Shown piece after piece: positions 25,800 through 61,744 of a DNA stretch of 64,000 bases. Made by a program: the position numbers and the translations under genes. Location of the stretch: positions 92,834,974-92,898,973 of the forward strand of contig CM068838.1 in assembly GCA_028554795.2 (NCBI GenBank), read 5' to 3'. The DNA comes from Sinohyriopsis cumingii. Lineage: Eukaryota > Mollusca > Bivalvia > Unionida > Unionidae. The notes under the pieces are model-generated. The model was not told the origin of the DNA. It searched no databases and was given only the letters and a program-made list of their open reading frames with translations. The stretch's first letter is position 1. Each line of letters starts with the position of its first letter.

Positions 25800-25850
25800 C
25801 TAGGGACAATGGAAATTGAACATGGGAAATGGATAGAATACAGACAATAG
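25800..25850. repeat. Polinton copy 1 left terminal inverted repeat
   Basis: CTAGGGACAATGGAAATTGA onward is the reverse complement of the right-end segment ending in CCATTGTCCCTAG at 41656, with about two mismatches in 50 bases. Polintons begin with AG; here AGGGACAAT follows the first two bases. Confidence 0.85.
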
Positions 25851-25862
25851 ACAAGAGACAAA

Positions 25863-25901
25863 GGTCCTTTTCAGGGCCACCCATTTCTCTCCAAAAGAGA
25901 T
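25863..25901 (+). promoter_or_regulatory. Histone-type 3' stem-loop module at the left end
   Basis: Stem GGTCCT, loop TTTC, stem AGGGCC (one G-T wobble), flanked by CAAA and ACCCA as in histone mRNAs. A purine-rich CAAAAGAGAT lies 13 bases downstream. It reads on the plus strand, away from the tip and into the element. No gene of this element lies upstream of it, unlike the other modules. Confidence 0.7.
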
Positions 25902-26119: not shown

Positions 26120-26533
26120 TCACTCTCTCTGTTTTTTAAATTTCTTCACTTTCACAGTTTTTTCCTCCTCTTCATCCTCACTTTCTTCCCTTCTTCTTTT
26201 TTCCTCCTGTTTCTTCACCTGTCTGCTTTCTTCCTCTCCATAACTCCCCTCTTCTTGCTCCTCTTGTTTCTTAGGGCATTCTGAAGACCAATGTCCTTTT
26301 TCTTGACAGTGATAACAGGTATCTTGACTTTTGTTTCTTCTAACCCCTATTTTGCTTTTTTGACGGTCTGGACACTCTGAAGACCAATGCCCTTTCTTCT
26401 TGTAGATATAGCAAGTATCTCGACTTTTATCTCGAAAGGAAGATGAGTAGTCCCACGGCTTGTCTGAAGAAAATTTTCTGATGACCCCTCACAAAGCTAT
26501 GATGAAAAGTTCGATCTGTGTAGGTTCTTCCAT
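26120..26533 (-). CDS. CCHC zinc-knuckle protein at the left end (antisense to PolB)
   Basis: The minus strand encodes two CCHC knuckles, CYIYKKKGHWSSEC and CYHCQEKGHWSSEC, the first with Tyr in place of the second Cys. A long Glu/Lys/Arg-rich helical tail follows, ending at 26120. Two spaced knuckles suggest single-stranded nucleic-acid binding, as in CNBP or Gag-like proteins. It lies between the left terminus and the polymerase, transcribed towards the terminus. The matching part of copy 2 is outside the window. As part of a fossil element it looks broken near its front. Function in the element is unknown. Confidence 0.65.
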
Positions 26534-26667: not shown

Positions 26668-29600
26668 ATGAGACGATTGAATCAATTCGAGAAGAAAGAA
26701 GAAGAAGAAAGTAAGAGGCAAAAAACGTGACCTATCGCCTCGTACCATAGCTGAAGTCTTGGCACAAATTCATGCCAGTGATTTTGAAGATGACATGAGT
26801 GAACCAGAATCCAGACACAGAGAGTCTTTATCACATTCGAGAGACGGAAAAGCGCTCCTCTAGAAAATTTAGAACCACAGCTTACACTTACAGGGTGAAG
26901 TTTAAGGATTTCAAGTCCGACGTACCGTTGGAGAAAGCAGAAGGGTTCATCATTGAGATGTGGGATTCTTTGCTCACCACACTAAAGCGACAATGTCAAG
27001 CCAAAGAAGACGATCGCTTAAGACTTTCCACACAACACGACGGCTTGAAAACCCTTGTTTGGATCGAGTTTAGCGGCCTCGCAGAATTGACCCCTTCCAA
27101 AGTCATGGACAAGATTTAACACGTGGAACAATCCAATGACCAGTTTGACATCACCGATGGAAAAACCATACTGTTCATGACCCACGTCTCTCCTCCTCAA
27201 GGGACCAGACAACGCAAAAAGGTGTTATTGGTGAATGATCTTCGCAGCACCAAAAAGAGTCTCGTCCAAATTAACAACCCTCAAGACCAGATGTGTTTAG
27301 TCCGTGCTATCGTGGTGGGACGAACGTATGCCAGCAAGAACGACACGGTAGAATGGAAAAGAGCCTGGAAAACTATTCAAAAATCGGACCGAGCCAAACA
27401 ACGAAATGAAGCAGAACTCCTGTTACAACTATACCGAACATGGTACCGAACGTCCTAAAGTTAATTTGAATGGAGCCAAAATCATTTCCATGCAAGTGGG
27501 ACAAGTGCAGTTTAAAGATTCGATGAGTTACTTGGCCATGCCTTTGAGTCGAATGCCTAAAACGTTTGGAATGACAGAAATGGCTAAAGGGTACTTTCCT
27601 CACTTTTTCAATACAGAAGCCAATCAACATGCTGTCCTACCCCATTTGCCTGAGGCTCAGGACTACGACCCCGACAACATGCGTACCGAACAACGAGAAG
27701 CTTTCTACGCATAGTACCAGACCCATGCCTCTGACCCTTTCGACTTTCAGGAAGAAATGTTAAAGTATTGTCGTTCCGACGTAGACATTGTACGGCGTTG
27801 CTGTGGAAAATTTCGAGAACTGTTCATGGAACACGGAGGGGTGGATCCTTTGAAAGAAGCTTGCACCATTGCCAAAGCGTGTTCCTTAGTGTACCGGCAA
27901 CGTTTCATTCCTGAAAACACCCTGACTGTCATCAGCCCTCAAACGACCTACTATGTCAAACGTCAATACTCGGTCAAAACCCTACGTTGGTTACATTACT
28001 TGTACGACAAGGAAGACAAATGGATTCAGCATGCCCGCAACGGAGGGGGCGAAAAGACCATCGGAACGCATTCGGTGGATGGCTGGGACTTAGAAAACCC
28101 AAGATCGTGTACGAGTTTAACGGTTGCTTATTTCACGAGTGTCCTGTCTGCTACCCTTATCGTAACACTAAAAATCAGTTTTTACAACGAACCATGGAAG
28201 ACTTGTACCAGGACACTTGTCAGCAACGCCTAAAGTTAGAACAGCAAGGATACCAAGTGGTGGAAATGTGGGAACACGAGTACGATCACCGTTTGAAAAT
28301 CGATCCCGAGTTTAAACGTATCGTGGAAAGTTACCAGTGGGTGGACCCCCTGAACCCGAGGGATAGTTTGTACGGAGGAAGGACTAATGCCACCTGTTTG
28401 CTGTACCAAGCCGACGAAGAGAAAGGAAAAGAAATCAAATACTTGGACGTGTGTTCCCTGTATCCTTACGTGTGCAAATATTGTCGCTTTCCTGCAGGGC
28501 ACCCGCAATTGCTAACGGAACACATCGACCTGAACCACATTCGACAATACGAAGGTTTGATCAAGTGCAAAGTCTTGCCTCCTACGGACTTGTACCATCC
28601 CGTGTTACCTCACCATTGTCAAGGCAAGCTGATGTTTCCCTTGTGCCGTACATGTGCCGAAACGTGCAACCAAGACCAACCTTGTCAGCAAAGCCAGGAA
28701 GAACGCGCCTTGATGGGGACGTGAGTTAGCGTGGAATTGCTCAAAGCTCTGGACATGGGATACCAATTGTTAGAAGTGTACGAAATTTGCCACTTTCCCA
28801 AGACACAACAATACCACAAGGGTGACCCTACTCAGAAAGGCATTTTCGCCGACTACGTGGATGCCTTTTTAAAACTGAAGCAAGAGGCCATTGGCTATCC
28901 TCCCTGGTGTCACACTCCGGAAGACCAAAACAAATTCAAAGACAAATACTGGGAGCAGGAAGGCATCACTTTAGACCACATCGAGAAAAACGAAGGCAGG
29001 CGATCGTTTGCCAAAGTGATGTTAAATTGCTTGTCGGGCAAAATGGCACAACGACCCTGTTTACCCAAGACGGAGTATTTGGCAGAACCTTCCCGCTACG
29101 TCCAGATGATTCACGACAAAACCAAATACATGAAACACGTGGACGTCGTTCGTGAGGATTTGATCTTGGTCAATTACGAAGAAGATCTGGACTTTGTAGA
29201 AGCCGACGAATTTGGAAATGTCATCATTGCGGCTTACGTGACAGCTCATGCTCGCTTAAAATTGTACGAAGCTTTAGAACTGTTAGAAGAACGCGTCCTG
29301 TACTTTGACACGGACAGTTGCATTTACATCCATCACCCGATTCAACAGCACCCTGACATCGAAGGAGACCGTTTAGGAGCCTGGACAGACGAACACCCCG
29401 ACGAGAAAATTTTAAGTTTCGCTAGTGGCGGTCCTAAATATTATGGCTACGAATACCGGGACAAACAAGGAGAAGTGCACACGGAGTGTAAAGTTAACGG
29501 ATTGACTCCGAATTATCGTACCTGTCGAGTGGTGAACTTTGGAGTATTGAAAGAAGCCTTGTATTCTGTAGAGGATGAAAACTTTAAAGTGACCACCCGT

Positions 29601-29774
29601 GAACTGAACAAGATTGTACGTTTACCCACTCACCAAATCGTCAGTCGGCCTCTGGAAAAAGTCTATCAGATCGTGTACCAGAAGCGAGTGCGTCTTCCCA
29701 ATCACTTTACTTTGCCGTATGGACATGTCGGCATTGGTCTGTATATAAAAAGGGACACTGTCCAAGATCAATAG
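26668..29774 (+). CDS. Polinton protein-primed family-B DNA polymerase, copy 1
   Basis: Replicates the element from protein-primed ends. Recognisable order: charged N-terminus; exonuclease region with a GYFPHFFNTEANQ block near 27590; the LLKYCRSDVDI-type block with YCRSDVDIVRRCC near 27768; the palm motif A LDVCSLYPYVCKYCRFPAGH near 28445; a Cys-rich insert (CRTCAETCNQ) near 28650; motif B KVMLNCLSGKM near 29015; motif C YFDTDSCIYI near 29301. These are the Polinton-type pPolB hallmarks, with the catalytic Asp residues of A and C present. It lies first on the plus strand and is followed at 29742 by a TATA box for the next gene. It is broken, with about five or more interruptions. Confidence 0.93.
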
Positions 29775-29806: not shown

Positions 29807-30457
29807 ATGAATACTTTCAGAGAAACACAAAACAAGTTCAGACAGGAACAATTCAAGTTTGGAGACTCTGAAGTGGAATGCAATGCAGAGCCTTGCGATG
29901 TGAGCGATACTGTACGTTGTGACCTCAGTGATGCAGTAAATCATCATGGGAACTTTGTTCTAACTACTACTACTACCATAACCCCTATCATGGAAAGTGA
30001 TGTTGTACGTGTCAAACCTGATGGATGCGAAAGCGATGCTGCTCTTTATCGTGGACACATTACTGGGTTTCATGGTAAATGTGGATGTCAACCTTCACGT
30101 CTACCACCCTACTGATGTCATACAGCCCTGAGCAAACTCCTGTCGATGTCACCTTGTCCTCATCGAAATGAACCTGTGAAAGACGAATATTCGTTCCGTG
30201 TGCGTTTGTCTGAATACTGCAACTTTGAAAATCGTTTTCAATCGTTCAAAGGAAAATGGCCTAAGTATTTGGGAGGACCAACCCCTGAAGAATTAGCCAG
30301 AGCCGGATTGTTCTACTTGGGCGAAGGGGATAAGGTCAAGTGCTTCAGTTGCGGTGTGTCACTTCACCACTGGGAACCAGAAGATTCGGCCTACGTTGAA
30401 CATGCTCGATGGTCTCCCAGTTGTCACTATTTACCTTTAGTAGGACGATATCAGTAA
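29807..30457 (+). CDS. Cys-rich BIR-domain (IAP-like) protein, copy 1
   Basis: The C-terminal half (30146-30457) is a BIR domain: YCNFENRFQSFKGKWPKYLG, then ARAGLFYLGEGDKVKCFSC, then GVSLHHWEPEDSAYVEHARW with SPSC. The zinc ligands Cys-x2-Cys...His-x6-Cys and the conserved Gly/Asp are visible. BIR proteins of the IAP family block caspases or modulate NF-kB signalling; viral versions protect the host cell from apoptosis. No RING is present. The N-terminal half contains Cys and acidic residues and ends CGCQPSRLPPY. A broken copy. The complete Cys-rich front is seen better in copy 2. Confidence 0.85.
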
Positions 30458-38943: not shown

Positions 38944-38982
38944 GATGTTTTCCTTCACGTCCGCGCTTTGACCATAAAAACA
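38944..38982 (+). promoter_or_regulatory. Shared promoter element of gene A, copy 1
   Basis: GATGTTTTCCTTCACGTCCG plus CGCTTT at 38944-38969, followed by a TATA-like CATAAAAAC. The same block precedes genes B and C and their counterparts in copy 2. Confidence 0.75.
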
Positions 38983-39031
38983 GGTCAGTCTCCAGTCTGA
39001 CCATCCATTGTCGACTCATCCTCCTACGAAG

Positions 39032-39346
39032 ATGTGCTCAAGATTATCCAAGGTGAACGAAGCCTACGTGAATATACATCGTGTCAGACAAAGTCTGATA
39101 CCAAAGCCTGAAGAGATAGAGAATGTTAGAATATTTAAGGTCACTGAAGACCTGATAGAAGAGCTCTTCAGAGAAGAAACTAACAGGGAGAAAGAAGAAT
39201 GGGCAGAGAAGTACAGACTTCAGAAACAGCAGAGAAAACAGAGTGACAGAAACAGCAAACTGAACCTGACAGAGGATTTGTCGACTGTCGTGTCGACACC
39301 AAAGAGTTCTTCTTCTCTTTCCGAAGAAGCAGACCTTATCTTCTGA
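39032..39346 (+). CDS. Gene A: small charged helical protein, copy 1
   Basis: MCSRLSKVNEAYVNIHRVRQ, then SLIPKPEEIENVRIFKVTED and a Glu/Arg/Lys-rich helix (LFREETNREKEEWAEKYRLQ), then a Ser-rich acidic end (SSSLSEEADLIF). Probably a coiled coil in the middle. No family recognised. The copy 2 counterpart is longer at the end. It is bounded by the shared promoter element and a histone-type stem-loop about 80 bases after its stop, and has no AATAAA of its own in the expected place. The start is the first ATG after the TATA-like box. Confidence 0.65.
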   Translation: MCSRLSKVNEAYVNIHRVRQSLIPKPEEIENVRIFKVTEDLIEELFREETNREKEEWAEKYRLQKQQRKQSDRNSKLNLTEDLSTVVSTPKSSSSLSEEADLIF

Positions 39347-39425: not shown

Positions 39426-39464
39426 AGCCCTTTTCAGGGCTACACCATACTCTAGAAAAGAAAT
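39426..39464 (+). terminator. Histone-type 3' stem-loop module of gene A, copy 1
   Basis: Perfect 6-bp stem AGCCCT / AGGGCT with loop TTTC (39426-39441), ACACCA after it and AGAAAAGAAAT starting 12 bases later. This is the order SLBP stem-loop, cleavage region, U7-type element found in replication-dependent histone mRNAs. Confidence 0.8.
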
Positions 39465-39614
39465 AACAATCCATTGCCTATAATAAGTTAGAAAAAAATA
39501 GAAGTGCGTTAATAAGCACATGAATTCTTTATCTTGGTTAAAAATGTGTGTATAAGCATTTTCTTTAAGTGGTTAATGAATTTTTTTTATAATAGTGATG
39601 GGTAGTAAAAAGTG

Positions 39615-39665
39615 AGTGTTTCTTTTAGGTCCGCGCGTTTTTAGATAATGATCTAGGTAATATAA
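39615..39665 (+). promoter_or_regulatory. Second promoter-like block between genes A and B, copy 1
   Basis: GTGTTTCTTTTAGGTCCGCG followed by CGTTTTT, a GATCTAGGTAATATAAGT segment with a TATA-like box, and then the shared element. It is a variant of the shared element (GTCCGCG core) and is kept in copy 2 near 50005-50062. Confidence 0.6.
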
Positions 39666-39681
39666 GTTTTGGGTCTTAGGG

Positions 39682-39719
39682 TATGTTTTCCTTCACGTCC
39701 GTGCTTTTCATATAAATAC
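39682..39719 (+). promoter_or_regulatory. Shared promoter element of gene B, copy 1
   Basis: TATGTTTTCCTTCACGTCCG plus TGCTTTT, followed directly by CATATAAATAC. Confidence 0.75.
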
Positions 39720-39804
39720 GAAAACACTCGGCAATCTAGCTACCCTTGTTGATTGATCAACAGTAAATATTATCAGCAGGCTAGCAAAACTTTTATAACT
39801 CCAG

Positions 39805-40263
39805 ATGCATCTGGAATATGCCAGACGCCTACTTAATGAACTGGCAGCGGAGACCATCGTCGAAGAAGGTAGGATAAAAGAGGAGGAGGAGCAAAATAGG
39901 AAAAAAGAAGAGGAGGAAAAGAACATAGGAATCAGGTCTTACCCTATGATGAGACATGTGTGTGGAGTGAAACCACTGTCACCTCCAGAGCCAGTACTTC
40001 CAGTACCACAACGTGAGCAGCAACAAGCACAAGCAGCAGTACCACAGCCTGTAGTAGCAGTTCCACAAAGGTTACATCCACGGCTGTGGCACAGAAGACA
40101 AAGAAGGGAGCGGGAACAAGTATTCCGAATCCCAGAGATAGAAGATTGGGGTACAGAGGCTACTCATCAAGCCTCTGCACTCCCAACCACTACTATAAAT
40201 TGGGAAGGGGATTGGATTAGACGTTGTGTCTGTGCTGCCAGGTCTGGAAGGTGCCACCATTAA
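39805..40263 (+). CDS. Gene B: small charged protein, copy 1
   Basis: MHLEYARRLLNELAAETIVE, then a strongly charged helix (EEEEQNRKKEEEEKN), a Pro/Gln/Val-rich linker (PEPVLPVPQREQQQAQAAVP) and FRIPEIEDWGTEATHQASAL before a Trp/Arg end. The front helix and the RIPExEDWxxEATHxASALP block are shared with copy 2; the linker is not, so it evolves fast. No family recognised. The promoter element lies about 90 bases upstream and the stem-loop 30 bases downstream of the stop. Confidence 0.6.
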   Translation: MHLEYARRLLNELAAETIVEEGRIKEEEEQNRKKEEEEKNIGIRSYPMMRHVCGVKPLSPPEPVLPVPQREQQQAQAAVPQPVVAVPQRLHPRLWHRRQRREREQVFRIPEIEDWGTEATHQASALPTTTINWEGDWIRRCVCAARSGRCHH

Positions 40264-40292
40264 CCAGGTGACCCTGGAGTTCTAACAAAAAC

Positions 40293-40331
40293 AGCCCTTT
40301 TCATGGCTAAACAAAACTCCAGAAAAGAGAT
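40293..40331 (+). terminator. Histone-type 3' stem-loop module of gene B, copy 1
   Basis: AGCCCT, TTTC, ATGGCT at 40293-40308 (one mismatch in the stem), then AGAAAAGAGAT 12 bases later. CAAAAAC precedes the stem. Confidence 0.7.
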
Positions 40332-40444
40332 ACTATTCATTTTGCCATTAATATAATGTGGAGTAGTGTGAATATAAACACTCGCTCCTTTCTGGGATGA
40401 TTGTGTGTGTGTGTGTGTGTGTGTGTTTGTGTTTGTAAGCAATA

Positions 40445-40825
40445 AAGTAAGTCTGTGTGGATAGTAGATTATTGGGGTTTGTAAGCTCTGAAGTACGTAT
40501 GTGTGAATAGTAGAGTGTGTGGTTATTAAACCTTCCCTACTGTGTGGATGGTATGTTTGGGTTTTGTTTTTATTTATTTGCTGCTTAGCGTGTGTGGATA
40601 GTAGATTATTGTTATGTTCTTGATGCTTCGGGGTATTTGGATAGTATAGTATGGGCTTGATTGTGATGCTTCCCGTGTGTGGATAGTATATTTTGGTTAT
40701 GTTTATGCTGCTTCGATGTATGAATAGTATATTATGGCTTTGATTTTACTGCTTCGCGTGTGTGGATAGTATATTATGGTTATGTTATTTGTGTAGTCAT
40801 TACTGTGTGGATAGTAGATAATATG
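40445..40825. repeat. GTGTGGATAGTA motif array between genes B and C, copy 1
   Basis: Nine or so copies of GTGTGGATAGTAKATTATGG, spaced about 40-50 bases apart with unlike sequence between. Preceded by a (GT)n tract near 40402. Copy 2 has a shorter array of the same motif at the same place. An iteron-like or enhancer-like arrangement. Confidence 0.85.
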
Positions 40826-40842
40826 AGAAGAAAAAAGTAGGG

Positions 40843-40880
40843 GATGTTTTCCTTCACGTCCGTGCTTTTCAAATAAGAAC
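40843..40880 (+). promoter_or_regulatory. Shared promoter element of gene C, copy 1
   Basis: GATGTTTTCCTTCACGTCCG plus TGCTTTTCAAATAAGAA at the end of the GTGTGGATAGTA array. Confidence 0.75.
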
Positions 40881-40930
40881 GGATAGCATTCGCCGTTCGC
40901 GACATTCTACGGAATAACTGAAAGAAGAAG

Positions 40931-41427
40931 ATGGCAGCAGCTTCAAACCTGTTCAACAATTTAAAGGAAACATAATATTGGATGATAAATAGTGAATATG
41001 TATTGGAAAGAATTGAAAGAGAATGGAGGATAAGAAAAAGCCTGGACTTTGCTAACAAACTAAAAGAAGCCAGCGAGAAGATAGAGGAGATTATAGAAGA
41101 AGAAGTGAAGAAGTTTAGAGGGTTCATTAATCCACCCTATGTCAGAGTTGGAACTTTAAAAGAGGCTCTGTATAACATTATAGAAGTAAGGTGTTTTTTG
41201 GAAGGCATGGTGAAATGGTCAGATTGGCCATTTGTCAAAAGAGGCCTGGACAAGCTGAAGAACTTATGAGAAAAGTGATGGAGGAAGAAGTAAAGAAGAT
41301 TAAAGACAAGTGGAGCAAAGAAAGAAAGGATAAGGAAAACTTAAAGAAAAAAGAGGCCTTTGAAAAACTAAATAACAGTTGGATCAGGATACAGGAGAAG
41401 TTTAGTTCTATGGGTAATCCTGACTGA
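40931..41427 (+). CDS. Gene C: coiled-coil charged protein, copy 1
   Basis: Front MAAASNLFNNLKET, then YVLERIEREWRIRKSLDFAN, KIEEIIEEEVKKFRGFINPP, YVRVGTLKEALYNIIEVRCF, and at the end EEEVKKIKDKWSKERKDKEN with AFEKLNNSWIRIQEKFSSMG. Predicted almost wholly helical with coiled coils and balanced Glu/Lys. It aligns with 48564-49086 in copy 2. It ends about 100 bases before a perfect stem-loop. Unknown function; composition would suit a structural or nucleic-acid associated protein. Broken. Confidence 0.6.
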
Positions 41428-41527
41428 TTACCAGAAAATGAAAAGAGCAAGAAAGGATATTTGGGAAAGATAAGGGGATGCATGAAGAAGTGGAGGAAAT
41501 AGAAGAAGAAGAAGAAGAAACCCAAAA

Positions 41528-41570
41528 GGCCCTTTTCAGGGCCATTCATATGCCTCGAAAAGAAATTGAC
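41528..41570 (+). terminator. Histone-type 3' stem-loop module of gene C, copy 1
   Basis: CCAAAA, stem GGCCCT, loop TTTC, stem AGGGCC (41528-41543), CATTCA, then GAAAAGAAATTG from 41557, 13 bases after the stem. This is the closest of all to the metazoan histone consensus, including the flanking A-rich bases. Confidence 0.82.
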
Positions 41571-41605
41571 TTTCTTGCCTATCTTTTTTTTAAAATGTCT
41601 CTGGT

Positions 41606-41885
41606 CTCTTGTCTGTGTTCTATCCATTTCCCATGTTCAATTTCCATTGTCCCTAGACAGTCCTACCATGTTAAATTTCCCCATGTTAAACTCCCCTTGT
41701 CGCTATAGTGTCGGTCCTGTATTCCCCATGTTCAATTCCCCTTGTCGCTATAGTGCCGGTCCTGTATTCCCCATATTAAATTCCCCTTGTCGCTATAATG
41801 CATACCCTGTGTTCCCGATGTTAAATTCCCATTGTCGCCAAAGTGCTGGGACCCTATTTTAACATTAAAGTCCCCTTGTCGCTGA
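41606..41885. repeat. Right terminal and subterminal repeats, copy 1
   Basis: 41606-41656 is the inverted partner of the left terminus. Beyond it, to about 41885, lie about four tandem units of about 50 bases on the theme TTCCCCATGTTAAATTCCCC and TTGTCGCTATAGTGCCGGTC. The same theme in reverse complement flanks the right end of copy 2. Confidence 0.8.
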
Positions 41886-42149
41886 ATCGTGCCTATACAC
41901 TACTTTCATTTATGTATTGACTAAAGTACTGTCAGAGCAGAGATTTTAAAATGTGTCTGTGTTAGATTCATTTCGGGGCAAGGTATTTTACCCTGATTTT
42001 TTGACAGTAAATATCGAAGCACAGTCGGGCAGGCGAACGTGTGTAGTGTGATTTCCACTAATGAAGGCTGCAGCAGCCTTTTCCTCGTCCTTAGAGCCCT
42101 TAATGTAAATTCGCATGTAGTTTTTAAATTCTTAAATTTAGAGAAAGGT
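41886..42149. other. No feature seen
   Basis: Short spacer between the Polinton end and a LINE fragment. Confidence 0.4.
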
Positions 42150-43075
42150 TCCTTACAAGAGTTATAAATAATGAGGATTTGTTTCGAATTGTCTTCCTCC
42201 GTGCACCATGAAAACTTTTTTGGGTTGTTTAATTAGTCTGGGAGGCGTTAGAGGAACAAAACGTTTGGATCTTTGAAAGCTGAATGTTTGTATATCTGAA
42301 CGAATTTCTAATGGAAAAGGTCTATATGGTATTTTTAGCTTGGTATAATGATTTGTATCTGGTTTGGGAAACAGATGCAATGGCAGGGTTCAAAGGGTCG
42401 TATCTTAATCTCAATGGATACTGTACTGATGTTTCTCTCCGATGAGATACAGGTGGTTCATTCACTTCAAAGGTTTTGACAAGGGGATTCCCAAATGGCT
42501 TAAAACCAAATCGCATTGCTTGGTGGTGAATTGGGTCAACCATCTTTAATTAAGGCTTTGTGACTGACCCAAAACAAAGCATCCATAGCCCAGCTTGGAC
42601 AAAATCAAGGTTCTATATAGGTTAAGAACGACTTTCCATAAACACCCCAGTCAGTGTGTTTTACTACTTTTAGTAAATCGCGGCTTTTCAAGCATTTAGC
42701 TTTCAACATCTTCATACGTGGAATGAATCTGAATTTTATGTTGTTGTTATTGTTGTAGGGTTTAACGCCATTTATCAGCACAAGATAGGCTATACATGGC
42801 GGCCAGTATAATTGGTGGAGGAAGAACGCTGGAAAACCCCGGGAAGAACCACCGACCCACTAGAAGCTACTGGCAGGCTTTCTCACGTACCAACGTTAGC
42901 CGAGGCTGAGACTCGAACTCACGCAGACAGAGATGAGATGGCAGTGATCCGTAATGGCGAGCGCTTTAGACCACTCGGCCACTCGGGTCCCCGAATTTGC
43001 TGTCGAAGACAATGTGTTGCGCATCAACAAGTAGAGGTTTTACACACACCGTAGCTGACAGAAGTGCATGCATAT
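42150..43075 (-). mobile_element. Jockey-like LINE fragment split by a SINE
   Basis: The minus strand encodes the RT thumb region of a Jockey/CR1-type LINE: LVDAQHIVFDSKF right of the SINE, and left of it FRFIPRMKMLKAKCLKSRDL, LLKVVKHTDWGVYGKSFLT, then MVDPIHHQAMRFGFKPFGNP, NEPPVSHRRETSVQYPLRLR and YDPLNPA. The order and wording match the ...SKLxFxPHIKxLKxKC... to ...LDPIHHQGLRLxLGAFRTSP... stretch of this clade. The RT core, endonuclease and 3' end are missing. Several stops and frame changes make it dead. It is a different clade from the RNase H LINE at 4.7 kb. Confidence 0.82.
42745..42990 (-). mobile_element. tRNA-derived SINE copy 5, nested in the LINE
   Basis: Full-length minus-strand copy with the (AAC)n tail at the left (TGTTGTTGTTATTGTTG) and the tRNA-like head at the right. 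GAATTT flanks it on both sides (left near 42736, right near 42991). The interrupted protein reading of the LINE continues across it, which fixes the boundaries and shows that the SINE is younger than the LINE. Confidence 0.93.
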
Positions 43076-44347
43076 CGTTTATGATTTTGATAATTTAAAA
43101 CCAAAGACAGTGGCCCAATATCGAATATTATTTATATTTTGTCGCAATGTTCTTTCATTTGTTCGCAAATATGTCGATCAAAAACATGTTAAGGCATCAT
43201 CAACATATAGGTAGCAATCCACACCAGGAGCCATACATTTGGTAATTTATTCATTCTGATGATGAAACGCGTAACAGATCATTACACTCTTAAGATAACA
43301 ACACACGAAAATACACTGAATTTCCAACCAAATCATCAAGCTATTTATAATGAAGGTGTATAAAAGTGTTGAAGTACGGGAGGGGGGAATCCAACGGGGA
43401 TTCTGCAATTAATTTGGAAGCAAATATCTGGTCGTGTAAAGACATGAAAAAAGTGTCTCTTGGCGAATGTAAAGAAAACCATTCTTAAGCTGGAATGTAA
43501 CTTTATTCGAGTGGATAAAAACACAATTTTTTTTTAAAAACGTGTCGAAACGTCTTGTGCTTGCAAGAATACATATTTTAATTCAGCTAATATATGAAAA
43601 TGGCGTAGAAGAGTTTATGATATTCTTCCGAGTATCCGATGATGCGTAAAGCCTGCTTCACATTGCACTCATCCCCTTCATATTTATTGTGACGTGAACA
43701 GTCAAAGATTAAAGTGACCTAACAGGTGCATCCATTATTCATGATGGGATATAACATGAGTAAAGAGGTTTCGTTTTGACGTTGTAAAAACCTGGAAAGT
43801 TGACAGCTTGAGGATGTTTCTTTTTAACGAAAAGTAGGCATTCGACAGAGATGGCCAAAAGGAATTAGTTACTCGAGTAGTTATAGCAAGTGAACTAGAG
43901 TTACTAAGTATTACCAATTCAGAAAGAAGTTTACAGGGAACAGAGTATATCGTCACTTCTGAAGACAAATATGGGTTTGTACTATGCTACTGAAAAGAAA
44001 GAGTGGGCTGGTGAGATAGAAGTAATGAAAGTGTGGTACAACATCATGTACTGGGATATTGCAAACGTTTTTTTTAAAAGTTGACAGGACAGCTGGATGA
44101 ACTTTTAAACACGCTTATGGGCGATTACAGGAAAGGCAAGACATAATTATATATCAAATTGACTACAGGAACTCTTGTATCACCTAATAGAGATCTATTT
44201 TCCTGCTGCTCTCTGTCCGCCATCTCAACATCTATATTCAGAGTCACACCAGGTGTTGTTAGAAGTGCGTACATTACATATCTTGCTGGATAAGTTGAAC
44301 TGAATGTATACTTCCTATCTGCTAATCTGTATTTCCCTTCTTGATGG

Positions 44348-44379
<32 letters not shown>

Positions 44380-45330
44380 AATGAATGGAGATGGATAGGA
44401 AAAAAAACCCCCCAAAAAACTATCATACATGCCGCCATCATGACTTCATCTACGAAATTTGAGAATAAATGTATATTATGTTGCCTATTCTTGATTCCAC
44501 TAGAAACCCAATGCATTTTACTGATAGCAAGAAAATAAGTTGTACTTTCAGGAACACGGTTTCCCCAAAATTAGTACAGGCCCACTGAAGGGTACGTTTT
44601 GTGAATAATGTTATCTTTATTTAGAAATCGATTTACATTGGTATCAATTTATTTTTTAGATTCGGACGTACTTGTACCCATGTGCCCGCTATTCTCTTCA
44701 AGATAGATGCTATGTTATATGGTGGTGCTCACAGAACCAAGTAGCACGACCGTGGAATCAAACTGGAACAAACCAAAATATAAACGTGGAGTCACGCAAC
44801 CAGTTAGAGTAAAGGACATGGAGATAAGCAAACGTATTCTGAAATAACATAAAAGAGAAACGATAAATAAAATTGCAAATAGTTCACACGCATATGTGAG
44901 ATGTCTGGTTATTCCATCCCTTCCAACATTAGATATAAAACAAACAACCTGATTACAGAGTTTGGATAAGCCTGTCAAAAGTAACCAGACAAGTTCACTC
45001 TTCAGATTGCACCTGTCCAGCAAGGTAAGTTTCATCTTAAATCTTGAACTTAAATTCTTCACTTGAGAGGTAGATAATCAATAAAATTATTTAACATGCG
45101 AAATTCGTGCAATTATGATTACAGCAACATCTGTTCGTATTGTCCCTTTATGTTTTTAAAATCAACGAGGATTTTATATCTTTGTGTTGATTCCTTGAAT
45201 TACCTCCCTAATCTCGACCAATTAAACAAAAACCGGGGAATAAGAATAACAGTAAAGGGTCAATACATATGTGATACTTCATACTATCTGATATTCTTAT
45301 AAAAAAATCGAGACTGCTTAAAAATCAACA
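43076..45330. other. No gene recognised; (GA)n tract
   Basis: AT-rich sequence with a (GA)n run near 44347-44379. Frames of 60-115 codons on both strands have no family resemblance. Upstream exons of the SWIM/YqaJ gene could lie here but none was identified. Confidence 0.4.
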
Positions 45331-45354
45331 TATAATATTTATTTTTTTGCACAG

Positions 45355-46545
45355 GCAAGGAGAGTCATGCACTCACATTCCTTCTTTGTTGTATGCCCTT
45401 ACTGACATCACAGAGAAAAGGAAGGCAAGTGAACTTTCAGCTACATCGTTAGAGTGTAAATGGAAAACACCACGGCATCGGAAACTTATCCCGAAGAAGG
45501 CAAAGGAAATGAAGCTAAAAAATGCTCCGGCACTCTCGTAAATTCATCATACAAAGAGTATTGCCTATCTGGAGATGGCAGTCCACTATAAAGGGAAGAA
45601 TTCCAGAAACAGTTGCTTGCTGTAAACCCTTTAGCAGGATATCATTAACATTTCCCCCAGCCAGATATTCCAGAGGAGGTACAAAAGGAATGTTGCATGC
45701 CACTCCCAGATATTATGTTCAGAGAAACTGGATCTAAACGACAAAATGTGTACAGAAAAAATTTATGACTATATTTCAAGTCAAGGCTTTAATTCTGCGA
45801 AGATAGAGGAGCACACTACAGGACAGAGGCAGCATATTGTTTGGGAAAAGGTGCGGAAGAACAGAATTGCAGCCTCAAAATTTGGTAGTGTTATGGCTAG
45901 GAAAGAAAAAAAAACACAACCAGATAATCTTTTGAAGTGCTATAATAAGGACCCATGTTCCAAATTATTTGAATGGGGAAAGAAAAATGAAAAGGCATTA
46001 CTTACCTATGTACAATTTAGTAATAAAAATGAACATAAAATCAGTACAAAAGACTGTGGTCTTATTGTATCAATTGATTATCCTTTTTTAGCAGATAGTC
46101 CAAATTCCCTGGTCCATTGCGAACATTGTAAAGAAACGAATGGCAATGTTACAGTGAAATGCCCCTTGAAATACAGGCATTTGACACCCCTCGAAGCAGC
46201 ATAGAAAAGTGATTTCTTCTGTGGTGTTAGAAATGGCGAGATATAATTAAGGTTCAATCACACTTATTACTACCAGGTACAAGGACAGTTAGCCTTCACT
46301 AATAGCAAGTGGTGTCACTTTGTTGCATGGACACCCTAAGGTATACATGTGGAGAGGATTTGGTTTGACAACAAACTCTGGAAGGAGAGAATGTTGCCCA
46401 AGTTGAAGACCTTTTTCGTCAAAAGCATTCTGCCAGAAATCATCTCAAAGAGAACTAAGACGCCTTCCTCTTTACCCACAACAATAAATTCAGTAATCAA
46501 GACTGACTCCATTCATTGTTTGGACAATTTTAAACTACTGTGATC
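45355..46545 (+). pseudogene. SWIM zinc finger plus YqaJ-type nuclease gene, broken
   Basis: A strong acceptor TTATTTTTTTGCACAG ends at 45354. The exon opens with GESCTHIPSLLYAL, the second half of a SWIM-type zinc finger (CxH pair). After a linker comes a YqaJ exonuclease fold: GQRQHIVWEKVRKNRIAASK, PDNLLKCYNKDP, FEWGKKNEKALLTYVQ, DCGLIVSIDYPFLADSPNSL (catalytic Asp region), CPLKYRHLTP, YYYQVQGQLAFTNSKWCHFV, then LPKLKTFFVKSILPEI. Such proteins occur in animal genomes as single genes and as cargo of ISL2EU-type DNA transposons. Stops and frame changes separate the blocks (after 45541, and between 46204 and 46349), so it is a pseudogene. No transposase or terminal repeats were seen. Confidence 0.75.
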
Positions 46546-48095
<1,550 letters not shown>

Positions 48096-48345
48096 ATGAT
48101 AGTAGTGAAGTGGGGCGATAGGGGGTCTAGGGGTCTTACCATTAAAAACAGGGTCCCGGTACTATGGGGTCTATGTAAAAATTTCACATGGGGAGCACAG
48201 GATATGGAATATAGGGTCTATGGGAATTTAACATGGGGAATGGGTCTGTTGAGGGTCAAGGGGAATTTAACATGGGGAAATTGAACATGGTGGGTCTGTA
48301 TAGCGTCAAGGGAACAATTAACACGGGGAGATGGATATAACACAC
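48096..48345. repeat. Right terminal/subterminal repeats, copy 2
   Basis: Irregular tandem units on the theme GGGAATTTAACATGGGGAAA with GGGTCTGTATAGCGTCAAGG, the reverse complement of the copy 1 subterminal theme. A (CA)n tract follows at 48340-48360. The element's exact tip is not resolved. Confidence 0.75.
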
Positions 48346-48398
48346 ACACACACACACACAATAGACATTTGTTTTTTAAAAGATTAGGCAAGAAAGTC

Positions 48399-48438
48399 AA
48401 GGTCTTTTCGAGGCATGGGAGTGGCGCTGAAAAGGGCC
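48399..48438 (-). terminator. Histone-type 3' stem-loop module of gene C, copy 2
   Basis: On the minus strand: CAAA, GGCCCT, TTTC, AGCGCC (one stem mismatch), then GAAAAGACC 12 bases later and the TTGCCTA phrase seen after other modules. Confidence 0.68.
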
Positions 48439-48527
48439 TTTGGGTTTCTTCTTGTTCTTTTTTATTTTCTCCAGTTCTTTATCCAGTTCCTGACTTTTTC
48501 TACTATTCCTTTCTTCTTCTTCTTCTT

Positions 48528-48558
<31 letters not shown>

Positions 48559-48563
48559 TCATT

Positions 48564-49086
48564 TTACGGTATCCAGTCAGGATGACCCAAAGTTCTGAAC
48601 TTGGTCTGTATTTTTATCCAATTGTTGTTAAGCCGCTCAAACTCTTCCTTTTTCTTTTTGTTTTCTTTTTCTTTTCTTTCTACAGTCCAAATGTCTTTTA
48701 TCTTCTTGACTTGTTCTCTCATCACTTTCTTCATCATCTCCTCTGCTTTCATCAGTTGGTTTAAGCCCCATTTCACATAGGACCACTCAGTCCACTCCAA
48801 AATATCTGTTAAAAAAACACCTGACTTCAATAGCATAATCAAGGGCCTCTTTCAGTTTACCCACTTTCACATAGTCAAGTTGTATGAAGCCTCTTAACTT
48901 TTTAACCTCCTCTTCAATCATGTCTCCAATCAGATCCCTGGCAAGTTTTAGACTCGTCACTTGACTTTTGACAAAGTCCTTCGTAACTTCATGCATCCAC
49001 TCTTTCTCTAGCCTTTCCACCACATAGGCTGCATCTGTCATCCAGTACCAACTCTCCTTTAGCTCACTAAATAGTTCGATACTCAT
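48564..49086 (-). CDS. Gene C: coiled-coil charged protein, copy 2
   Basis: Begins MSIELFSELKESWYWMTDAA, then YVVERLEKEWMHEVTKDFVK, MIEEEVKKLRGFIQLDYVKV, GKLKEALDYAIEVRCFF, and at the end MKKVMREQVKKIKDIWTVER with FERLNNNWIKIQTKFRTLGH. The same helical layout as copy 1 at clearly lower similarity than the capsid genes. Broken. Confidence 0.6.
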
Positions 49087-49133
49087 TTTCTTGGGTTCTT
49101 CCGTAGAATGGTGCGAACTACGTACCTTGTGGA

Positions 49134-49170
49134 TTCTTATATAAAAAGCGCGGACGTGAAGGAAAACATC
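49134..49170 (-). promoter_or_regulatory. Shared promoter element of gene C, copy 2
   Basis: Minus strand: GATGTTTTCCTTCACGTCCG, CGCTTTTTATATAAG; a clear TATATAA follows the element. Confidence 0.8.
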
Positions 49171-49189
49171 CCCTATTTTTCTCATCTCA

Positions 49190-49400
49190 TATTATCTACT
49201 ATCCACACAAAGTTGATCAGCCATATAATCTAACCTCATTATATACTATCCACACACACGCAACGCAGACAAATCCAACCCAAACTATACTATCCACACA
49301 CGCCAAGCAACAAAAACATATCCATAATCTACTATCCACACAAACGTACTTGAGCACTTACAAAACCCAACAATCTACCATATACACAAAGGTTCTTTTA
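49190..49400. repeat. GTGTGGATAGTA motif array, copy 2
   Basis: About five copies of the complement TACTATCCACAC (near 49197, 49242, 49287, 49329 and a weaker one near 49377), spaced about 40-50 bases, at the same place as in copy 1. Confidence 0.8.
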
Positions 49401-49506
49401 GTGCTTACAAACACACATACACAAATACAATCACACCAGGAGAAAAGAGTGAGTGTTTATATTCACACTACTCTACATACACACACACACTGGCAAATTT
49501 ATTACT

Positions 49507-49544
49507 ATTTCTTTTCTAGAGCATGGGTAGCCCTGAAAAGGGCT
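49507..49544 (-). terminator. Histone-type 3' stem-loop module of gene B, copy 2
   Basis: Perfect stem AGCCCT / AGGGCT with TTTC loop on the minus strand (49544-49529), AGAAAAGAAAT 11 bases later. Confidence 0.8.
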
Positions 49545-49605
49545 GTTTTTTTTTTTTCAACTCCACAGACACCTGCTAGTGGTTGCACCTCCCTGGCCTG
49601 GCACC

Positions 49606-49896
49606 TCAAACGCATCTCCTACTCCAGTCTCCCTTCACTCTTTTCGCTGGGAGTGCAGATGCGGGATGAGTGGCTTCAGAATCCCAATCTTCTGTCTCTG
49701 GGATTCTGAAATTTCCTTGTTGTGGCTGTGGTACAGCCATTCCTCTCTCCTTTTCCTCCTCTTCTTTTTTTCTTTTCTCCTCCTCTTTCATCCTTCCTTC
49801 TTCCACTATAGCCTCTGCGGCCAGCTCATTCAGTATGAGCCTGGCATATTCCAGGTACACATGGAGTTCAAGAAGTTTCGCTAGCCTTCTGCTCAT
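49606..49896 (-). CDS. Gene B: small charged protein, copy 2
   Basis: MSRRLAKLLELHVYLEYARL, ILNELAAEAIVEEGRMKEEE, a Lys/Glu helix, then a short linker and FRIPETEDWDSEATHPASAL. Compared with copy 1 the Pro/Gln linker is much shorter, while both ends are conserved. The MSRRLAKL front resembles the MCSRLSKV front of gene A, hinting that A and B arose by duplication. Looks whole here. Confidence 0.65.
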   Translation of the reverse strand: MSRRLAKLLELHVYLEYARLILNELAAEAIVEEGRMKEEEKRKKEEEEKERGMAVPQPQQGNFRIPETEDWDSEATHPASALPAKRVKGDWSRRCV

Positions 49897-49947
49897 TTTG
49901 TAGTGTTGATCAATCAACAAGGGTAGCTAGACTGCCGAGCGGTTTTT

Positions 49948-49983
49948 AATTTATACGAAAAACGCGGACGTGAAGAAAAACAT
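49948..49983 (-). promoter_or_regulatory. Shared promoter element of gene B, copy 2
   Basis: Minus strand: GATGTTTTTCTTCACGTCCG, CGTTTTTCGTATAAATT. Confidence 0.75.
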
Positions 49984-50004
49984 CCCCCTAAGACCCAACA
50001 CTTA

Positions 50005-50062
50005 TATTACCTAGATCATGACCAAAAAACGCGCGGACCTAAAAGAAACACTCACTCACTTT
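50005..50062 (-). promoter_or_regulatory. Second promoter-like block between genes A and B, copy 2
   Basis: Minus strand: GTGTTTCTTTTAGGTCCGCG, CGTTTTTTGGTCATGATCTA, then GGTAATATAAGTG. Nearly the same as in copy 1, which shows selection or recent common origin. Confidence 0.6.
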
Positions 50063-50213
50063 TGAAACTAACCATCACTACTCTAAAAAAATTTAACAAG
50101 CCACTTAAAGAAAATACTTATACATACACACTAACTTTCCAAGCAAGATAAATAATTCATGTGCTTATACACGCACTTCTATTTTTTGAACTTATTATAG
50201 GCAATCGATTGTT

Positions 50214-50252
50214 ATTTCTTTACTAGAGGTTGGGGTAGCCCTGAAAAGGGCT
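50214..50252 (-). terminator. Histone-type 3' stem-loop module of gene A, copy 2
   Basis: Perfect AGCCCT / TTTC / AGGGCT on the minus strand (50252-50237), CAAAAAAC before, AGTAAAGAAAT 12 bases after. Confidence 0.8.
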
Positions 50253-50275: not shown

Positions 50276-50632
50276 CTAGGGCAATCTTTTAGGTTCTAAG
50301 ATTGCGGCCTCCTCTGACGATAGGCTTTCTCCCAGGATAAGGTCTGCTTCTTCGGAAGAGAAGAAGAACTCTTTGGTATCGATACGACAGTCTACAAAGC
50401 CCCTGTCAGGTTCAGGTTGTTGCTGCTGCTGATGCTCTCTCTGAAGTCTGTACTTCTCTTTCCATTCTTCTTTCTCCCTGTTAATTTCTTCTCTGAAGAG
50501 CTCTTCTGTCAGGTCTTCAGTGACTTTTAACATTCTCACATTCTCTATCTCTTCAGGCTTCGGTATCAGACTGTGTCTGACCCTATGCAAATTCACGTAG
50601 GCTTCGTTTAGCTTAGCTAGTCTGGAGCACAT
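50276..50632 (-). CDS. Gene A: small charged helical protein, copy 2
   Basis: MCSRLAKLNEAYVNLHRVRH, SLIPKPEEIENVRMLKVTED, LFREEINREKEEWKEKYRLQ, a Gln run, then EEADLILGESLSSEEAAILE with a basic end. About 118 residues, and looks whole. Its stop is about 25 bases before the stem-loop, the short 3' UTR usual for histone-type mRNAs. Confidence 0.68.
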   Translation of the reverse strand: MCSRLAKLNEAYVNLHRVRHSLIPKPEEIENVRMLKVTEDLTEELFREEINREKEEWKEKYRLQREHQQQQQPEPDRGFVDCRIDTKEFFFSSEEADLILGESLSSEEAAILEPKRLP

Positions 50633-50682: not shown

Positions 50683-50720
50683 GGTTTTATAGTCAAAGGG
50701 ACGACGTGAAGGAAAACATC
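50683..50720 (-). promoter_or_regulatory. Shared promoter element of gene A, copy 2
   Basis: Minus strand: GATGTTTTCCTTCACGTCGT then CCCTTTGACTATAAAACC, TATA box included. Confidence 0.75.
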
Positions 50721-60950: not shown

Positions 60951-61695
60951 TCAATGTCTCGGTCCCACTAAGGGTAAGTAATGACAATTCGGTGACCATC
61001 GAGCATGTTCTAGGTAGGCCGAATCTTGTGGTTCCCAGTGGTGAAGTGACACACCGCAATTGAAGCACTTGACTTTATCCCCTTCGCCCAAGTAGAACAA
61101 TCCGGCTCTGGCTAATTCTTCGGGGGGTTGGTCCTGCCAGATACTTAGGCCATTTTCCTTTGAACCATTGAAGACGATTTTCAAAGTCGCAGTATTCCGA
61201 CAAACGCACAGGGAACGAATATTCGTCTTTCACAGGTTCGTTTCGATGAGGAAAGGGTGACAGGGACAGGAGTTTGCTCAGGGCTGGATGACATCCGTAG
61301 GGTGGTAGACGTGAAGGTTGACATCCACATTGACCACGAAACCCAATAAAGTGTCCACGATGACCAGGGACATCGATTTTGCATTCATCAGGTTTGACAC
61401 GCACAGCATCACTTTCCATGATAGGAGTAGTGAGAACAAAGTTCCCATAATGCTTTACGGCATCACTAAGGTCACAACGTACAGCATCGCTCACATCGCA
61501 AGACTCACAATCGCACTCGTCTGTCAACTCCGTTACGCAATTACAATGGTAACCGCATGGACACTTGCAGTTTCCTTCCTGACATTTTCCGTCGCAATGC
61601 ATGGGTCTTATCCATCCAATATTAGTTACACAAGGGGAAGATAAAACTTTTTTACAATCCCCAAACTGCAATGTTGTCTCTTTCAAAGGATTCAT
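60951..61695 (-). CDS. Cys-rich BIR-domain (IAP-like) protein, copy 2
   Basis: Front MNPLKETTLQFGDCKKVLSS, then a dense Cys cluster CDGKCQEGNCKCPCGYHCNC and DECDCESCDVSDAVRCD, metallothionein-like in look. A linker CGCQPSRLPPYGCHPALSKL follows, then the BIR: YCDFENRLQWFKGKWPKYLA, LARAGLFYLGEGDKVKCFNC, GVSLHHWEPQDSAYLEHARW with SPNC. All four zinc ligands are visible. The Cys cluster suggests a separate metal-binding domain. It would act in the cytosol on apoptosis or innate signalling if expressed. Broken in the BIR. Confidence 0.85.
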
Positions 61696-61744
61696 CTTGT
61701 TCGCTTGGTCTTGGTAGTCACAATGAACTATCGATCTTGCCTAT

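Follow-up and report, generated by a model that had tools for sequence, protein, structure and literature searches.

Two copies of a Polinton, a mobile virus-like element, lie in a 64,000-nucleotide (nt) stretch of the genome of the bivalve Sinohyriopsis cumingii (assembly GCA_028554795.2, contig CM068838.1, positions 92,834,974 to 92,898,973; called the window here), the second copy extending beyond the window end. Histone-type transcription units, each combining an S-phase-linked promoter with a 3' end of the kind processed by SLBP and the U7 small nuclear ribonucleoprotein (snRNP), very probably control the non-histone genes at the termini of this element. In animals, the route through stem-loop, SLBP, and U7 is, to our knowledge, generally presented as exclusive to histone genes. 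What supports this reading is the sequence of the signals, where they lie, how well they are conserved, how many copies exist, and their identity with the histone signals of the host. The genes concerned are accessory genes at both ends of the element, with A, B, and C at one end and D and E at the end that carries the type B DNA polymerase gene (polB).

Genes A, B, and C of both copies are each followed by a histone-type stem-loop (SL) and, starting 11 to 13 nt past the stem, by a purine-rich histone downstream element (HDE) (Table 1). The initial annotation had described these six SLs from the letters alone, and a pattern search recovered all of them at the same positions and on the same strands, with four perfect 6-bp stems and one mismatch in each of the stems at 40293 and 48438. 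A seventh SL, at 25863 and adjoining the left terminal repeat, had been overlooked. With up to three mismatches allowed, the pattern yields seven SLs in the window versus a mean of 0.82 and a maximum of 4 in 100 shuffles, and chance hairpins were rejected on this comparison. The loose TTGCC phrase described downstream of the HDE is also present, and similar TTGCCA or TTGTCA phrases follow host H2A and H4. The text TTTGCCA at window positions 39473 to 39480, about 12 to 15 nt past the HDE, is well conserved across gene A copies. In the covariance-model scan proposed at the same time, one window SL exceeded the gathering threshold of Rfam RF00032 (span 41523 to 41568; 35.1 versus 34 bits), five scored below it (31.3, 31.2, 29.0, 27.0, and 22.3 bits), and the SL at 40293 was not listed at an E value of ≤10.

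The histone genes of the host occur in tandem repeats of ~8.27 kb each, which were found by a search of the 2.9-Gb genome, and two of these repeats (L051 and L052) were used for comparison. The H1, H2A, H2B, H3, and H4 genes in them all end in an RF00032 match over threshold. The host HDE reads TAGAAAAGA in H3, H4, H2B, and H1 and CGAAAAGG in H2A, and the TAGAAAAGA core is common to the four host genes and to most of the gene A and B copies read, occurring in the window after gene A of copy 1 and gene B of copy 2 and, with one change, after gene A of copy 2 and gene B of copy 1. Among the C, D, and E copies that were read, most have GAAAAGAG or a close variant as the HDE; it is lost in one D copy (L002) and in a D/E hybrid (L003). 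Many C, D, and E copies, like the host H3 HDE, contain an AAAGAG core that, according to a passage in PMC7026596, pairs with mouse U7. The SL follows the stop codon by 27 to 38 nt in the host histone genes (one repeat) and by 15 to 21 nt in six of nine gene C loci. By sequence, the SL and downstream element of the Polinton genes are of one type with those of the host histone genes; the initial annotation had proposed a comparison with the host's histone gene ends.

To assess the conservation of these signals, we took 20 copies of gene A by hand from a protein search (22,156 first-look candidates, 150 of them scored; 159 matches), working down its ranking, passing over the window copy, and making the choice without having seen the DNA; as high-ranking copies, these are the better-kept ones. 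The first 20 SL loci were selected by SL score and are a biased set. All 20 gene A copies have the SL and HDE after the gene, 18 of the SLs being perfect and two having one mismatch, and TAGAAAAGA is present in every one. Column identity reaches 99.4% in the SL and 98.5% in the spacer and HDE, compared with 92% upstream and 88.5% and then 85.7% downstream. The SLs are kept after orthologous genes in related copies of the same genome; the initial annotation had named their absence from related elements as evidence against the idea, and none of the refuting outcomes it listed was observed within the reach of the analysis. Stem pairs are formed in 118 of 120 cases for gene A and in 51 of 54 cases each for nine B stems and nine E stems, which come from loci chosen for a neighboring SL, except for the E stem of L072. 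The outer stem pair is A-T in gene A and in eight of nine B stems and G-C in six of nine E stems, a change on both sides of the stem.

The 5' ends of the units also resemble those of histone genes. A 24-nt element, GATGTTTTCCTTCACGTCCGCGCT or a near variant, opens each of genes A, B, and C; the window holds five matches to it within three mismatches. In the window, it agrees with the host H2B promoter at 23/24 positions and with that of H1 at 25/27 over a longer stretch; good copies reach 23 to 24/24 for H2B and 22/24 for H1, and two of seven Polinton copies examined (L005 and L001/L053, the latter being one place) contain the H2B element without a single difference (24/24). A second element, before gene B, is identical to the host H4 promoter at 22/22 positions in the window. 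These matches to host promoters score 12 to 22 versus shuffle maxima of 9 to 13.5 (30 shuffles each), and the comparison with the histone repeat reported no match for the host H3 and H2A promoters. The upstream regions of five core genes score 10.5 to 12 against the histone repeat, inside the range of shuffled queries, versus 15.5 for the gene A promoter. The promoter element is present in all 20 sampled gene A copies, without a mismatch in 18, with one mismatch in another, and with three in the last, and its column identity is 99.2%, versus 70.5% before it and 81.5% after it (flanks ungapped). Its core, CACGTCCGCG/AGGTCCGCG, resembles the site for HINFP (HiNF-P), whose binding here is putative. 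HiNF-P brings NPAT to H4 promoters, as a passage in PMC5706932 describes. Because histone-type promoter elements stand on genes A, B, and C, the case for S-phase expression gains support that is independent of the 3' ends.

Both kinds of signals are extremely numerous in the genome. Exact matches number 24,957 for the promoter pattern, 730 for the H4-type element, and 36,897 for the SL-plus-HDE pattern, and the reversed control of each gave 0. By eye, the host histone SLs of L051 and L052 do not satisfy the SL-plus-HDE pattern, and host histone genes yielded 662 first-look candidates, versus the 36,897 exact SL-plus-HDE units. In the RF00032 genome search, all 75 scored candidates, among 589,472 first-look candidates, were over the cutoff. 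Of the 56 promoter places listed for the first 5.02 Mb of contig C1 (a list copied by hand), 54 were compared with the SL-plus-HDE matches: 37 have an exact SL and HDE downstream, on the strand of the promoter and no more than 1.5 kb away, at 391 to 498 nt in 32 of them. The ~25,000 promoter matches and ~37,000 SL-plus-HDE matches imply, as pattern counts, that this Polinton family has thousands of copies, and, if the majority of these are near full length, it perhaps makes up several percent of the genome.

Taken as transcription units, A, B, and C would start at the host-shared promoter element and end ~0.4 to 0.5 kb later in the SL and HDE. The histone transcription machinery of the host would switch them on at the G1/S transition, SLBP would bind the SL, U7 snRNP would pair with the HDE (the host U7 5' end being expected to be complementary to CTAGAAAAGA), and CPSF73 would cut between SL and HDE. 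The resulting mRNA would carry no poly(A) tail and would be present only in S phase, a time at which the polymerase of the element could exploit host replication conditions. We infer from these sequence features that transcripts of genes A, B, and C would be processed by SLBP and U7 and that the Polinton genes would be timed to S phase. The initial annotation had proposed that host histone 3'-end processing ties three non-histone genes to S phase, and this proposal gains support from the host-type SL and HDE, their presence in all 20 sampled copies, the conservation peak, and the promoters.

Several observations weigh against such units. Stop-to-SL distances are 196, -41, and 82 nt in the other three of the nine gene C loci, and many frames are broken, some of them in the window (gene C and the end of gene A in copy 1; gene C, split into two frames, in copy 2). 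The promoter of D and E has no significant match to the host histone repeat, and 17 of the 54 promoter places have no exact SL and HDE within 1.5 kb. Searches of the genome with RF00066 and with patterns gave no convincing host U7 small nuclear RNA: no RF00066 candidate was over threshold, the best (29.3 bits) pairs poorly with the HDE, and the list is at noise level because the same loose search was positive in 12 of 14 prokaryote controls. Ten stretches inspected as candidates lack a convincing U7 hairpin; most of the ~100 matches listed, of 175 for one pattern, are one repeated text resembling by eye that of an integrase gene (L103); and L093, with a 10-bp hairpin, was dropped for poor HDE pairing and a nonstandard Sm-like site. 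In the window, polB and the other core genes, for integrase, ATPase, capsid, and protease, are without a histone-type module. The finding that no SL lies within 260 nt of 15 core-gene frame ends, some of which are in broken frames (best match, four mismatches), speaks for the units, but AATAAA is within 260 nt at only 4 of the 15, so that a clean poly(A) contrast with the terminal genes is not obtained. Finally, AATAAA stands 62 to 76 nt past the SL in 12 of the 20 gene A copies, followed by G/T-rich text (64 to 84% in the stretch 16 to 66 nt past AATAAA).

Because of this last arrangement, poly(A) use is possible, and the terminal genes might have dual 3' ends, with the SL and HDE used in S phase and a downstream poly(A) signal used as well, so that expression would not be strictly bound to S phase. 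The two copies of gene B in the window likewise have AATAAA 177 nt (copy 1) and 102 nt (copy 2) past the frame end, and dual 3' ends are reported for H2A.X (PMC7807067). On the other hand, eight of the 20 gene A copies lack AATAAA in that position while the SL and HDE are present in all 20, and the host H4 gene itself has AATAAA at 21 and 76 nt past its SL, so the presence of this signal is no proof of its use. We regard dual ends as a serious possibility, but the lesser one.

We consider it unlikely that the 24-nt element serves host genes in general as a core promoter, which would make it uninformative about S phase. The promoters that were compared closely are those of histone repeats and Polinton loci, as this explanation would allow, but upstream of five core genes of this Polinton the element was not found. 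Among host histone genes, H1, H2B, and H4 carry the element or the H4 form and none was reported for H3 and H2A, and the regular spacing at 32 of the 54 listed places indicates that most of these begin SL-ended units.

It is very improbable that the hairpin works not through SLBP and U7 but at the DNA level or in some other RNA function (packaging, an origin of replication, or a terminator by the terminal repeats). The SLs of genes C and D do adjoin the terminal repeats at opposite ends of the element and face outward, but internal genes (A, B, and E) are followed by SLs as well, which in the loci read lie on the gene strand. A plain hairpin would need neither the HDE nor its spacing, yet both are mostly kept, and host histone genes carry the same pair of SL and HDE; a simple terminator role was rejected. 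The least probable explanation, that an ancestor acquired pieces of host histone genes and the copies merely inherit the signals as passive relics, has in its favor that both unit ends resemble one host histone repeat and that the copies are closely related, but the promoter and 3' signals exceed their flanks in conservation and are found with several distinct reading frames (two different proteins at position C among them), the stems differ by gene (the outer pair being A-T in A and B and mostly G-C in E), and A, B, and C have no histone Pfam match, and capture of a histone gene was rejected. Histone-type units driving the terminal genes of the Polinton remain the reading we prefer.

Copy 1 has terminal arms of 61 nt that enclose 15,735 nt, within the ~15 to 20 kb expected between the inverted repeats of a Polinton, and a type B DNA polymerase is encoded in frame 28725 to 29774 (Pfam DNA_pol_B_2, 27.1 bits versus a cutoff of 25.8). 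This is the sole Polinton core gene past a Pfam cutoff, the other core genes being named by eye or from a subthreshold match: the integrase and capsid-like genes of the window were assigned by eye, and the adenovirus-type protease matched Peptidase_C5 among window frames at 16.1 bits, under the cutoff of 21.3. The capsid-like protein has 13 relatives in the protein collection, 11 of them at 56 to 67% identity. With Polintons/Mavericks and adintoviruses, the element shares a type B DNA polymerase and terminal inverted repeats and, going by these provisional assignments, probably also an integrase, a packaging ATPase, an adenovirus-type protease, and capsid-like genes, and it differs from them in the histone-type promoter and SL/HDE on its terminal accessory genes.

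Genes D and E form a divergent pair, each with an SL at its end in the loci read, and copy 1 keeps only the SL of gene E, the gene body being missing. Position C can be occupied by two different proteins with 3' signals of identical type (nine loci). In gene A of copy 2, the last third is unlike its relatives, and the 3' frame may be shifted. The order at the polB end is E, then a zinc-knuckle gene, and then polB. This CCHC zinc-knuckle gene, on the strand opposite polB, is found at window positions 26120 to 26488 (minus strand; Pfam zf-CCHC for the window frame) and in L056, L057, and L058. BIR-like (IAP-type) domain text was recognized by eye in both copies (window positions 30116 to 30457 and 60951 to 61740), and the sole piece of it searched, 61075 to 61740, has no Pfam match. 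In L058 (858 to 3698), two copies stand head to head with their polB-side ends adjacent. L056 (at 3429) has a single SL with D-type text 5' and E-type text 3' of it, a hybrid that suggests possible recombination at SLs.

Table 1. Coordinates of terminal repeats, accessory genes, promoter elements, and stem-loops of the two Polinton copies in the window
Feature	Position	Strand	Details
Left terminal inverted repeat, copy 1	25800..25860		61 nt; 95% complementary to 41596-41656
Seventh SL, gene E type	25863..25878	+	AAAAGA at 25893-25898; 31.2 bits; tail resembles gene E SL in L072, L056-L058
Promoter element (histone type), gene A, copy 1	38944..38967	+	23/24 host H2B; 25/27 host H1
Gene A, copy 1	39031..39346	+	Frame altered near 3' end
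SL after gene A, copy 1	39426..39441	+	AGAAAAGA at 39454-39461; 29.0 bits
Promoter element (H4 type) upstream of gene B, copy 1	39619..39640	+	22/22 host H4
Promoter element (H2B/H1 type), gene B, copy 1	39682..39705	+	Host match
Gene B, copy 1	39805..40263	+	
SL after gene B, copy 1	40293..40308	+	One mismatch; AGAAAAGA at 40321-40328; outside RF00032 list at E ≤10
Promoter element (H2B/H1 type), gene C, copy 1	40843..40866	+	Host match
Gene C, copy 1	40931..41513	+	Interrupted frames; approximate limits
SL after gene C, copy 1	41528..41543	+	AAAAGA at 41558-41563; RF00032 35.1 bits, over gathering threshold
Right terminal inverted repeat, copy 1	41596..41656		Pairs with 25800-25860
SL after gene C, copy 2	48423..48438	-	One mismatch; GAAAAGA at 48403-48409; 22.3 bits
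Gene C, copy 2	48564..49086	-	Two frames; approximate limits
Promoter element (H2B/H1 type), gene C, copy 2	49147..49170	-	Host match
SL after gene B, copy 2	49529..49544	-	AGAAAAGA at 49510-49517; 31.3 bits
Gene B, copy 2	49606..49896	-	
Promoter element (H2B/H1 type), gene B, copy 2	49961..49984	-	Host match
Promoter element (H4 type) upstream of gene B, copy 2	50027..50048	-	22/22 host H4
SL after gene A, copy 2	50237..50252	-	AGTAAAGA at 50217-50224, one change from usual core; 27.0 bits
Gene A, copy 2	50276..50632	-	118-amino-acid open frame; stop-to-SL distance 23 nt
Promoter element, gene A, copy 2	50697..50720	-	Degenerate at end; host H2B match over 18 nt only

The products of genes A, B, and C match no Pfam family above cutoff, histone families included; gene B has one subthreshold Alpha_TIF match. 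Nine protein relatives of gene A were found in the protein collection, and a metagenome relative (P0017) is predicted to fold into two helices with a disordered tail. The predicted structure of gene C from L017 (three-row alignment) consists of low-confidence helices with a mean predicted local distance difference test score (pLDDT) of 68, and no viral model matched it at an E value of ≤0.001. Scans of IMG/VR with the capsid-like protein and its alignment, the protease, a fragment of the major capsid protein, and the SL patterns confirmed no Polinton relative; 13 SL-pattern matches there look like chance by their surrounding letters. Two further matches, from a scan of genome contigs, lie in metagenome-assembled genomes of gut bacteria and were judged from the titles alone to be chance.

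Like replication-dependent histone genes of animals, the Polinton units are short and combine a 6-bp stem, a T-rich 4-nt loop, a purine-rich HDE ~11 to 14 nt farther on, an SL soon after the stop codon, and promoter elements as in host H1, H2B, and H4. They differ in that the A, B, and C proteins are not recognizable histones and in that the signals reside in a mobile virus-like element, in tens of thousands of exact copies. H2A.X and herpesvirus RNAs processed by Integrator are reportedly comparable in that host machinery distinct from that of standard polyadenylation, or acting in addition to it, forms their 3' ends; H2A.X is a single cellular histone, and the herpesvirus RNAs depend on a different machinery. 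Among the articles that our searches of the open-license literature of PubMed Central listed, some judged by title, we found no report of histone-type signals in Polintons, and no article there contained both "Polinton" and "SLBP," and to that extent this Polinton would be using a known host histone pathway in a way for which no report was found.

What stands out is the presence of histone-gene signals, with matching promoters, on the non-histone genes of a virus-like element and in enormous numbers. On balance, we lean toward the view that this element has adopted the entire histone expression program, promoter and 3' end alike, for genes that are not histones, in which case expression of active or transcribed copies would be limited to S phase, and they might compete with histone pre-mRNAs for SLBP and U7 or seed extra histone locus bodies. 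If so, the family would show how a Polinton can time its gene expression to the DNA replication of its host, and it would provide a naturally occurring collection of variants, in the thousands, from which the requirements of SLBP and U7 might be learned. It would also raise the question of whether such elements load or disturb the processing of histone mRNA in the host.

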